In this document: positions 2,606 to 8,598 of the stretch, one piece after another
Position numbering within the stretch: the first letter of the stretch is position 1
Layout of the letters: every line of letters starts with the position of its first letter
Origin: Arctopsyche grandis
Taxonomy: Eukaryota; Arthropoda; Insecta; Trichoptera; Hydropsychidae
Length of the DNA: 64,000 nt
Direction: 5' to 3'
NCBI RefSeq assembly: GCF_051622035.1
Contig: NC_135356.1
Location: 10,514,579-10,578,578 of the forward strand
The notes under the pieces: generated by a model
Told to the model about the DNA's origin: nothing
The model's input: only the letters and a program-made list of their open reading frames with translations
Database searches by the model: none
Translations under genes and position numbers: made by a program

Positions 2606-3362
2606 GTTGTTTGGGTTGTACCTCCTTTTATAGTGTTTCTGGAATCACCTGACCCATGGTGGTGGTTTGTTGATGCGTAAGCGAGGAATGTTCTTTTGTC
2701 GAGGGGTGGACTTTTCTGGAACGATTGGCGCCGTTCCGCTCGATGTAGTTTAATGGTGGCGGCGTGTTTCGACCGTTTTGGTTCTGCTCGACTGGTAGGG
2801 GCGTTCCGCTTGAGTTTAATATAATGACTGCAGGTGTGCGTCGTCTGGGTTTCGTTCCGCTTGTTTACGTGTGTGAGTTCTGCAAGGAATGTGGTTTGTT
2901 GTTGCGGAATATTCTCGAATGTTTCGATGACGATGACGATGACGAGATTCCTACAAACTGAAAAACACTATTGTGAAAAACAACTGAAATACACTGTTGT
3001 GATGTGTAGGCATACCAACTTACTTTTTCACTCGCGCCTGTAAACACCGACTTGTCGGGCGCAGTAAACATGTATATGTACATACATATGTAAAAAAAAA
3101 CAAGTGGACGGTCCGTTACAAACGGTTTCGCGACAACTGACTCACGGACTCAACGGTGTTACGCGCACGAAATTTCACTCACGCGACAACAGCTCACAAC
3201 AGTTATTTTGACAAATCTGCGGATTTTCAAAAGCATTTGTTTAGTTTGTAGTACCGGTAGTTCCAAAGGTTTATTTTCGGTCAAATACTGATACCACCAG
3301 TATCGGCACATTCGGTAATGCCCGTGAGCCAGTTGTCGCGTGATTGAAATTTTGTGCGCGTA

Positions 3363-3745
3363 ACACCGCACGCACGTACAGACGCACGCACACACACATT
3401 GAAATCGAAATCGCACGGACGCACGCACACACACACACATTGAAATCGCACGCACACACACACATCGAAATCGAAATCGCACGCACGCACGGACGGACGA
3501 ACGCACGCATGCACGCACGCACACGCACACATCGAAATCAAAATCGCACGCATGCATGTACACACACACATCAAAATCGTAGCACGCACGCACGCACGGA
3601 TGGACGGACGCACGCAAATACACACGCACGCACGCACGCACGGATGCACGCACGCACGTACACACGCATGGATGCACGCACACACGCACGGATGGACGCA
3701 CGCACGCCCACACACACGCACGGCCGGACGGATGCACGCACGCAC
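3363..3745. repeat. ACGC/ACAC-rich simple-repeat tract
   Basis: About 380 bp of imperfect (acgc)n, (acac)n and (ggacgg)n, interrupted by recurring 'atcgaaatc' blocks. Long open frames cross it on both strands in several phases (His-Ala-Arg-Thr repeats on one strand, Cys-Val-Arg-Ala on the other). This is the signature of a 4-bp repeat rather than a protein. The recurring 'cacatcgaaatcgaaatcgcacg' block gives a weak higher-order period of roughly 40-60 bp. Confidence 0.9.
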
Positions 3746-3863
3746 ATCGAAATCAAAATGACAACAAGTGACAAAAGTGTGTGTTTGTGGGGGGACGTAA
3801 TTGTTACAAGTTTATACAAGCTTGCAAACTACATAATTGTCACGCGCGCCTCTATGGCACCGT

Positions 3864-4194: not shown

Positions 4195-4199
4195 ATATC
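4195..4199. repeat. Target site duplication (left) of BEL element
   Basis: ATATC immediately precedes the first base of the insertion at 4200. The same five bases follow its last base at 8594-8598. Five bp is within the range known for BEL/Pao integrases. Confidence 0.85.
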
Positions 4200-4418
4200 T
4201 GTTCCGACCAAGTCTTCATGGTCAGCTTTCGTGGCGTTACGACCAAAGGAGCCGTTTTGGAGGGAGATCGGCGCCGAGCGCGCGTCCCCGCCTGCTATTC
4301 GTTTTCCGCTTCGGTCGAGTGAACATCTCTGTTCGCTACCGAGTTTGTTCCCACCACCGAGTCCCGATCAGCTCAGCCTGGATCGGCAGACGATACTGGA
4401 AGTACAGCTTCAGTATAC
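4200..4418 (+). repeat. Inverted copy of LTR U3 start (219 bp)
   Basis: By eye this is identical to the reverse complement of 4859-5077, the first 219 bases of the 3' LTR in element sense. It begins with the exact LTR terminus TGTTCCGACC at 4200, directly after the target duplication. Both outer ends of the whole insertion are therefore U3 ends facing outward, instead of one U3 and one U5 end. Confidence 0.95.
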
Positions 4419-4436
4419 ATCCGGCTCGAAGGACCA
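4419..4436 (+). other. 18-nt tRNA-Tyr 3'-end sequence at LTR junction
   Basis: ATCCGGCTCGAAGGACCA matches the last 18 nt (positions 59-76) of animal tRNA-Tyr, including the post-transcriptional CCA. In element sense it lies right after U5 (two extra bases, TG, precede it) and reads as a perfect 18-nt primer binding site, although this is the 3' end of the element. Eighteen nt is the length expected when reverse transcriptase copies a primer tRNA and stops at m1A58. The tRNA identity is recalled from general knowledge of tRNA-Tyr sequences, not searched. Confidence 0.8.
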
Positions 4437-5077
4437 CAATGTACAGACTCCAGGGATGTTCAACTCGAGAGCACCCCGGAAGTCGGTTTCTTAGAAGCTC
4501 GTGGTAAGCGTGGGCGGGACTGGTCTCCTCCAAGGGATCTACAGGTCGTCGTCTGCGGTCTGGTCTCTGCTGATGTCTATCTCTCTCTCTCTCTCTCTCG
4601 TACAGTGTGCGTAAGGGAGTGTGATACAGGACAAAGGCGGGAAATTATACAATAATGATAACAGGTTGTAATTCTGTTTGTATGGTGACTGTATTTTATA
4701 TATGTATAAATACAGAGAATAAGCAGGGGGGGGGGGGGGAGTCCGTCGTGAAATTAGCGCGCACGTGTTCGAGAGGTTATGATAACCTCACTCCTCACGT
4801 GACTACGTGATCTGACTTCGACGAAGAAAGACCAGGATTTCCTCACTTCTCACCGGACGTATACTGAAGCTGTACTTCCAGTATCGTCTGCCGATCCAGG
4901 CTGAGCTGATCGGGACTCGGTGGTGGGAACAAACTCGGTAGCGAACAGAGATGTTCACTCGACCGAAGCGGAAAACGAATAGCAGGCGGGGACGCGCGCT
5001 CGGCGCCGATCTCCCTCCAAAACGGCTCCTTTGGTCGTAACGCCACGAAAGCTGACCATGAAGACTTGGTCGGAACA
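4437..5077 (-). repeat. 3' LTR of BEL element
   Basis: About 640 bp, starting TGTTCCGACC at 5077 in element sense and ending near GTACATTG at 4437. It contains a (ct)n tract (4571-4599), a 14-G run (4726-4739) and a TATATAAAA box. The differences from the 5' LTR that I can see are run-length changes in the G and CT tracts and the last two bases. Confidence 0.9.
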
Positions 5078-5090
5078 TACTCCCCCCGTT
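5078..5090 (-). promoter_or_regulatory. Polypurine tract
   Basis: In element sense this reads AACGGGGGGAGTA and sits immediately before the U3 start of the 3' LTR. This is the expected primer site for plus-strand DNA synthesis and it fixes the element's orientation. Confidence 0.8.
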
Positions 5091-7931: not shown

Positions 7932-7953
7932 ATCCGGCTCTTTCGAAGGACCA
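7932..7953 (-). promoter_or_regulatory. Primer binding site for tRNA-Tyr, interrupted by 4 nt
   Basis: In element sense TGGTCCTTCG pairs with the last 10 nt of tRNA-Tyr. AGCCGGAT pairs with the next 8, but four extra bases (AAAG) lie between the two blocks. The corresponding stretch beside the 3' LTR has no such interruption, as expected if that copy came from the tRNA itself. Confidence 0.75.
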
Positions 7954-8593
7954 ATGTACAGACTCCAGGGATGTTCAACTCGAGAGCACCCCGGAAGTCG
8001 GTTTCTTAGAAGCTCGTGGTAAGCGTGGGCGGGACTGGTCTCCTCCAAGGGATCTACAGGTCGTCGTCTGCGGTCTGGTCTCTGCTGATGTCTATCTCTC
8101 TCTCTCTCTCTCTCTCGTACAGTGTGCGTAAGGGAGTGTGATACAGGACAAAGGCGGGAAATTATACAATAATGATAACAGGTTGTAATTCTGTTTGTAT
8201 GGTGACTGTATTTTATATATGTATAAATACAGAGAATAAGCAGGGGGGGGGGGGGAGTCCGTCGTGAAATTAGCGCGCACGTGTTCGAGAGGTTATGATA
8301 ACCTCACTCCTCACGTGACTACGTGATCTGACTTCGACGAAGAAAGACCAGGATTTCCTCACTTCTCACCGGACGTATACTGAAGCTGTACTTCCAGTAT
8401 CGTCTGCCGATCCAGGCTGAGCTGATCGGGACTCGGTGGTGGGAACAAACTCGGTAGCGAACAGAGATGTTCACTCGACCGAAGCGGAAAACGAATAGCA
8501 GGCGGGGACGCGCGCTCGGCGCCGATCTCCCTCCAAAACGGCTCCTTTGGTCGTAACGCCACGAAAGCTGACCATGAAGACTTGGTCGGAACA
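7954..8593 (-). repeat. 5' LTR of BEL element
   Basis: 640 bp, starting TGTTCCGACC at 8593 and ending GTACAT at 7954 in sense. It includes a TATATAAAA box (8211-8219 on the + strand), a 13-G run and a (ct)n tract. The sequence is nearly identical to 4437-5077. Confidence 0.9.
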
Positions 8594-8598
8594 ATATC
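8594..8598. repeat. Target site duplication (right) of BEL element
   Basis: ATATC, identical to 4195-4199. Confidence 0.85.

Follow-up and report, generated by a model that had tools for sequence, protein, structure and literature searches.

An LTR retrotransposon insertion in Arctopsyche grandis ending in a tRNA-Tyr copy and an inverted U3: a probable integrated product of misprimed plus-strand strong-stop DNA

Introduction

How could an LTR retrotransposon come to carry, beyond its 3' LTR, a copy of a tRNA 3' end and an inverted copy of its own U3, all within a single target-site duplication? The question is raised by an insertion in the genome of the caddisfly Arctopsyche grandis, found in a stretch of 64,000 nucleotides (contig NC_135356.1, here C2, positions 10,514,579 to 10,578,578), which we refer to as the window. 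A sequence-only reading of this DNA had proposed that the insertion is the fossil of a self-primed reverse-transcription intermediate, in which plus-strand strong-stop DNA folded back, primed on its own U3 and was extended to its own 5' end. In HIV-1, plus-strand strong-stop synthesis halts 18 nt into the tRNA due to m1A58 (PMC13191261). Here we analyse the anatomy of the insertion, its relatives, the origin of its tail and further aberrant insertions in the same genome.

Results

Anatomy of the insertion

The element lies on the minus strand of the window. In its own sense it reads LTR, internal region, LTR, spacer, 18-nt tRNA-Tyr copy and inverted U3 running from base 219 to base 1 (Table 1), and one 5-bp target duplication encloses the whole unit including the tail. 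The letters thus confirmed what had been described: an exact 18-nt tRNA-Tyr copy with its CCA after the 3' LTR, a 219-bp inverted arm ending at the first LTR base, and the duplication. The LTRs had been drawn as 5077-4437 (641 bases) and 8593-7952 (642 bases).

The single A/G difference reported at 4419 was likewise the only mismatch before the two arms diverge, LTR base 220 being G. The last tail base is T on the minus strand (A on the plus strand), a retained T.G mismatch, and since it marks the end of the tail, T.G-paired when priming, the tail is exactly 18 nt long. The spacer before the tail is TTG, compared with T at the element's own 5' junction; in 12 relatives it is TT (8/12), TTT (2/12) or T (2/12). 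At the other end of the 3' LTR the window reads GGGGGGAG-TA-TGTT, with TA separating the polypurine tract (PPT) from the LTR. The insertion looks young, since a single poly-C base and a single GA unit are all that separates its two LTRs. A CGCACGCACG-type short-repeat array lies beside it at 3354-3767.

Table 1. Features of the insertion, in window positions.
Feature	Position	Strand	Remark
Target-site duplication ATATC, left copy	4195..4199	.	equals 8594-8598
Inverted U3 (LTR bases 1-219 reading on +)	4200..4418	+	219/219 identical to LTR
18-nt tRNA-Tyr 3'-end copy including CCA, TGGTCCTTCGAGCCGGAT	4419..4436	-	
Spacer TTG, between U5 (...ACA) and tail	4437..4439	-	
3' LTR proper, TGTT...ACA	4440..5077	-	boundaries from relatives
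Tail pairing site, LTR bases 220-232, GTCCGGTGAGAAG	4846..4858	-	
Polypurine tract GGGGGGAG before 3' LTR	5080..5087	-	
BEL/Pao-type gag ORF (DUF1759), 766 aa	5478..7778	-	
Own PBS TGGTCCTTCGAAAGAGCCGGAT	7932..7953	-	tRNA-Tyr match with 4-nt insertion
5' LTR, TGTT...ACA	7955..8593	-	base 7954 = 1-nt spacer (T)
Target-site duplication ATATC, right copy	8594..8598	.	

A gag-only BEL/Pao element of mosaic origin

The window element is a gag-only, non-autonomous BEL/Pao copy. Its 766-aa ORF contains PF03564 (DUF1759, E 2.2e-27), which we take to be a marker of BEL/Pao gag, and the near-identical TG...CA LTR pair with its 5-bp duplication (ATATC/ATATC) is of the BEL/Pao kind. No domain of pol (RT, RNase H or integrase) was detected in the 766-aa ORF, and the internal region spans only 2.87 kb. 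Many homologues of this gag also carry PF05380 and some carry PF00078 (RT). Two A. grandis proteins (P0001 and P0002) are 99% and 97% identical to it over 90% and 64% of the ORF, and the 12 other element copies measure 4158-4212 bases, compared with 4157 for the window element. Given these copies of similar length and the near-identical proteins in the same species, gag-only copies have multiplied. Some LTR sites lie approximately 6.4-6.5 kb apart (e.g. C2:33,597,800/33,604,314 and C3:2,323,757/2,330,199), as opposed to approximately 3.5-3.6 kb in gag-only copies; such pairs may represent autonomous partner elements.

We compared the window element with the 12 copies by identity in 200-base bins. 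Its LTR was 98.5-100% identical to those of three copies (L011-L013), R/U5 included, whilst the nine others reached only 75-91% in R/U5. In bins 801-1600 the relationship was reversed: the nine others were 96.5-100% identical to the window element and L011-L013 only 70-80%, and in bins 3001-3600 the window element was just 80-91% identical to all 12. Because the nearest relatives switch between bins, the element is a recombinant, a mosaic of two subfamilies, which would be consistent with co-packaged RNAs. In the collection viral_contigs, the gag ORF gave three stretches that fit a pattern, none of them confirmed, and the 18-mer of the tail gave no match.

The tail is absent from the relatives

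An LTR search of the genome (475.7 Mb, 189 contigs; 585 first-look candidates, 40 scored) returned 42 LTR matches, three of them the window's own. Twenty family regions were read, comprising 12 complete elements and 8 solo or partial copies. The 3' LTR of every complete relative (12/12) ends in ...ACA with other DNA beyond, so the tail is not family structure, and an LTR of approximately 880 bp as the normal state of the family is ruled out, in agreement with the earlier proposal. A perfect 5-bp target-site duplication (TSD) flanks 11 of the 12; the PPT is the same in all 12, and LTR bases 212-240 are identical across 13/13 aligned 5' LTRs.

The twelfth complete relative (L010) forms an inverted pair with L029 (C5:8,397,367-8,406,908), two copies lying tail to tail with swapped 5-bp duplications. 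Swapped duplications are expected from recombination between inverted copies, so we regard this locus as an inversion and rejected it as a further reverse-transcription product. Also rejected as a further case was L009, which with L030 and L031 (C1:39,102,000-39,117,000) makes up a long, near-perfect palindrome around one copy, host flanks included, at 99.8-100% identity. This palindrome could be a recent inverted duplication or an assembly artefact.

The tail was copied from tRNA-Tyr

The 18 nt of the tail are the 3' end plus CCA of tRNA-Tyr in the same genome. A 21-nt tRNA piece reaching into the T loop matched eight genomic places, seven of which were called tRNA-Tyr(GTA) by ARAGORN with introns allowed, and the attribution to the species' own tRNA-Tyr was thereby upheld. 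The eighth (L077) was called Asn, though its printed sequence resembles the other seven.

The element's own primer binding site (PBS, 7953-7932) reads TGGTCCTTCGA-AAGA-GCCGGAT. The AAGA insertion is missing from the tail, which was therefore templated by the tRNA and not by this PBS. The exact PBS of another copy, of which the window's family has 16, is conceivable as a template but disfavoured, because a leader follows those sites and nothing in them ends after 18 nt. Three PBS alleles occur among the window element and its 12 relatives: an exact 18-nt match (L014), the form with AAGA inserted (window, L009, L011, L012 and L013) and a form that leaves the tRNA after 11 nt (L010, L015-L018, L022 and L027). 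That mismatched alleles persist in several copies points to a PBS that does not routinely inherit the tRNA copy. At another family locus (L026, C6:4,480,860-4,481,499 and downstream) the sequence after the LTR, TTGATCCGGTTCGAAGGAT, resembles a PBS, either a damaged one or one used by a different tRNA.

By analogy with HIV-1, the tail ends where m1A58 would block reverse transcriptase, a modification that Arctopsyche tRNA-Tyr presumably carries. The sequence switches directly after 18 nt and the inverted arm ends at U3 base 1, as expected of a strong-stop product. We found no open-access literature on BEL/Pao elements with a tRNA-Tyr PBS, and a term search of the main text of a paper on metazoan BEL/Pao elements gave no mention of PBS or tRNA (PMC3118150).

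The same join at a second locus

A search for further LTRs followed by the 18 nt and inverted U3, as the sequence-only reading had suggested, yielded one locus with an identical join and one related case. The identical join lies at C11:1,221,406-1,222,307 (L083 with L088), where an LTR, the 18 nt and U3 inverted from base 219 to base 1 stand inside CTTAT/CTTAT. The LTR of L083 is 90.5% identical to that of the window. Between its U3 and that of the window there are five differences, at bases 87, 94, 95, 147 and 181, and all of these substitutions (5/5) recur in its own inverted arm. Over 225 bases the sole mismatch between the L083 arms is base 220, G to A, exactly as in the window. Since the L083 arm bears all five substitutions of its own U3, the same join formed twice, and L083 is an independent event in which the arm was copied from its own U3 lineage. 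This independence rests on the five substitutions together with the LTR divergence. Base 95 was dropped as a private SNP linking the window arm to its own LTR, as G95 occurs in 2/42 other LTR matches.

No match to the internal region was found within 4.0 kb to the left or 0.2 kb to the right of L083. Lacking this region, the locus may represent the small product as it was inserted, or else LTR-LTR recombination may have shortened what was once an element like that of the window.

The recurrence bears on three rival explanations. One is that the palindrome is false, an artefact of assembly or sequencing, and the same genome does hold the long, possibly artefactual palindrome with host flanks described above. 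Against this stand two loci with an identical join, differing U3 bases and different perfect TSDs, an exact 18-mer that the window element's own PBS does not contain, and inverted arms that stop exactly at U3 base 1 with other DNA beyond. An artefact is thus very improbable. Equally hard to credit is autointegration or rearrangement after insertion, whether by attack of U3 on its own LTR, by a second LTR inserted adjacently or by recombination of copies. Tail-to-tail copies do exist in the family (L010/L029), but here the U5 end is unprocessed and bears the tRNA copy, the internal join has no separate duplication, a single TSD surrounds the whole unit, and the join is identical at both loci. 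Least credible of all is a heritable variant LTR, copied as such; it would account for a join common to two loci, but the variant is absent from the window's own 5' LTR and from all 12 complete elements, is carried by only 2/233 junction-like places, and would not give L083 an arm that follows its own U3 instead of the window's.

In the genome the 19-mer across the junction occurs without mismatch at exactly two places and with up to two mismatches at 231 others (backwards control, 0 and 5). The 98 of these 231 matches that were listed, apparently in order of mismatches, all have two mismatches and read as an ordinary LTR site, with no one-mismatch form among them. The event is rare, with 2 joins against 231 other junction-like places.

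The exact 18-mer was found at 39 places (control, 0), a count of exact copies that leaves older or shorter tails outside. Sorted against reference pieces, 16/39 are ordinary PBS of the window's family, 2/39 belong to a second family and 10/39 to a third (7 with one leader and 3 with another); one of the 39 is L014. Five were assigned to no family (L042, L062, L068, L084 and L085), and six are aberrant: the window (L046), L083, L082, L057, L058 and L044. Downstream of another 18-mer, in an old third-family copy (L063, C7:28,225,412-28,225,429), a weak inverted LTR piece lies approximately 230-330 bases past the 18-mer (72.7% over 99 bases, 85% over 40 bases).

Pairing at position 220

In both the window LTR (624 positions) and the L083 LTR (648 positions), base 220 is where pairing that starts from the 3' end of the tail runs longest, with seven contiguous pairs (5 Watson-Crick and 2 G.T); in the window LTR these are followed by two mismatches and then four more pairs. 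Runs of at least seven pairable bases also occurred in 888/2000 letter-shuffled LTRs, so a site of this strength would not be rare in itself. In an equilibrium fold of the whole strong-stop strand the 220 pairing had p ~0.002 and fold-back was not favoured, and in an artificially isolated flap plus tail it reached ~0.01. Position 220 is the best available site, and nothing indicates strong pairing. The proposed self-priming was borne out in part: priming at U3 base 220 and extension from it gained support from the second locus, whereas folding of the whole strand did not favour the pairing.

The microhomology at this site also allows for host end joining, in which the U5 end of a complete cDNA with an unremoved 18-nt overhang would be joined via TCCGG to a broken U3 end from another cDNA, and the joined DNA integrated afterwards. 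TCCGG is indeed present, and a host polymerase would be able to extend the mismatched terminus as well. Such joining would however require two breaks at one and the same position and, in the case of L083, a joining partner that shares its five substitutions, whilst the observed joins fall on the same base at both loci with each arm matching its own U3. We therefore consider it unlikely, though it is the strongest of the rivals. Extension of the primed end by a host polymerase would give an identical anatomy by just a different enzyme.

Related aberrant insertions

The related case, L082, belongs to a different LTR family and measures 493 bp (C10:27,704,254-27,704,746, minus strand). It consists of an LTR of 235 bases, the 18 nt, 34 nt of normal leader and the LTR inverted from base 206 to base 1. 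The arms are identical (206/206), CCGAG stands on both sides, and the join has an AATGA/TCATT overlap. Its plus strand had here passed beyond the PBS. With neither a 3' LTR nor a PPT present, LTR-LTR recombination does not readily account for the insert. Its pairing site has an equal elsewhere in the LTR, where a second position likewise pairs over a 5-base run.

Three further insertions are less clean than L082 and serve as context only. In L057 (C6:2,077,516-2,078,309) a second-family LTR is followed by the 18 nt, TA and an inverted LTR (365 identities, 4 mismatches, 17 gap positions), and no target duplication was seen. It could be a U5 hairpin whose tail was joined to a minus-strand 5' end keeping tRNA A76. 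L058 with L087 (C6, approximately 3,086,900-3,092,622) reads U5 of the window's family, the 18 nt, approximately 195 nt and then inverted U3, continuing with inverted LTR 1-386. The ~195 nt include, without interruption, the 3' end of the coding sequence for host ribosomal protein L6 (PF01159, E 3.4e-12), a chimera which suggests that a host mRNA may have been copied in the same particle. In L044 the final 35 bases of an LTR recur in direct orientation after that LTR and the 18 nt, and the flanks nearly match (GTATA/GTATC).

Discussion

The insertion is best explained by plus-strand strong-stop DNA that primed with its 3' end on plus-strand U3 and was elongated as far as the U3 terminus, the product then being integrated; we put the probability of this at roughly 0.8. 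On this account plus-strand strong-stop DNA (U3-R-U5 with the 18-nt tRNA-Tyr copy, stopped before m1A58) would form and its tail would be freed by RNase H, whilst normal second-strand transfer to the PBS would be missed. The 3' end of the tail, CCGGAT, would then anneal to plus-strand U3 DNA at base 220, keep its terminal T.G mismatch and be extended to the 5' end of the template U3. Either the U3 flap displaced from the strand itself or another plus strand may have served as template, in cis or in trans; both arms share all U3 variants in the window and in L083, as would equally be the case if two sister strands had been made from one RNA. Given one of the further steps described below, the outcome would be linear duplex DNA that ends in U3 on both sides, which integrase would process and insert with a 5-bp duplication.

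The one-step account given earlier covers the 18 nt, the pairing and the base at 4419. It falls short in that a closed hairpin offers a single DNA end, whereas two are needed for concerted integration, and a further step must be assumed. Two routes would supply it. Two plus strands could pair their complementary 3' ends and copy each other. Alternatively, the U3 flap could be displaced, copied, cleaved and ligated at the right end of a complete cDNA. The first route would fit L082 and L083, which are small inserts, and the second would fit the window. We favour two-strand priming or a cut flap over a pure snap-back in cis.

The exact stop at the U3 terminus probably has a cause outside that single step, too. 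Because TA separates the PPT from the LTR, the stop at U3 base 1 (TGTT) is probably due to end-processing by integrase, and the strong-stop strand very likely started upstream of TGTT. The G of the spacer, in ACATTG-TGG, is not explained by the proposed mechanism and counts against it.

A close parallel is the self-priming of minus-strand strong-stop DNA in HIV-1, which is TAR-dependent and reduced by nucleocapsid (PMC4668388). The two share a strong-stop 3' end that mispairs and primes on retroviral DNA in place of transfer. HIV-1 self-priming, as described there, concerns the minus strand at R, whereas the caddisfly case involves the plus strand with a tRNA tail, at U3, and its product, unlike that of HIV-1, was completed, integrated and inherited. 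Unintegrated circles also resemble the caddisfly insertion in keeping tRNA- or PBS-derived sequence at the U5 end; they differ in not being integrated, and no inverted U3 copy is described in the account consulted.

Olsen and Swanstrom (1985) reportedly described defective retroviral DNA in which strong-stop DNA was misused as a primer. We know of no integrated U3-U3 fossil. A description of an integrated strong-stop fold-back was not found in the open-access literature, and one may exist elsewhere in print. In Ty1, primer tRNA sequence is said not to be inherited (Lauermann and Boeke 1994). Similarly, tRNA-mismatched PBS alleles survive in several of the caddisfly copies; the difference is that the aberrant caddisfly product displays the full 18-nt copy directly.

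More generally, the insertions may reflect a recurrent side pathway of LTR retrotransposons, in which two plus-strand DNAs pair their 3' ends, copy each other and integrate as U3-U3 DNA, pairing either tRNA tail on U3 or leader on LTR. We hold the arguments for and against this wider reading to be about evenly balanced. If it is true, palindromic LTR insertions with tRNA tails would record the sites and frequency of second-strand transfer failure. If the strong-stop reading of the insertion itself holds, integrase would accept two U3 ends, and the full 18 nt of the tRNA would be copied in a BEL/Pao element despite persistent tRNA-mismatched PBS alleles. Strong-stop intermediates do not last long and are mostly examined in vitro or in infected cells, whereas one would be preserved here in the chromosome. 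The signature of failed second-strand transfer, an LTR followed by an 18-nt tRNA copy and an inverted LTR, would be searchable in any genome, and would open the rate of plus-strand transfer failure and the rules of priming to comparative study.
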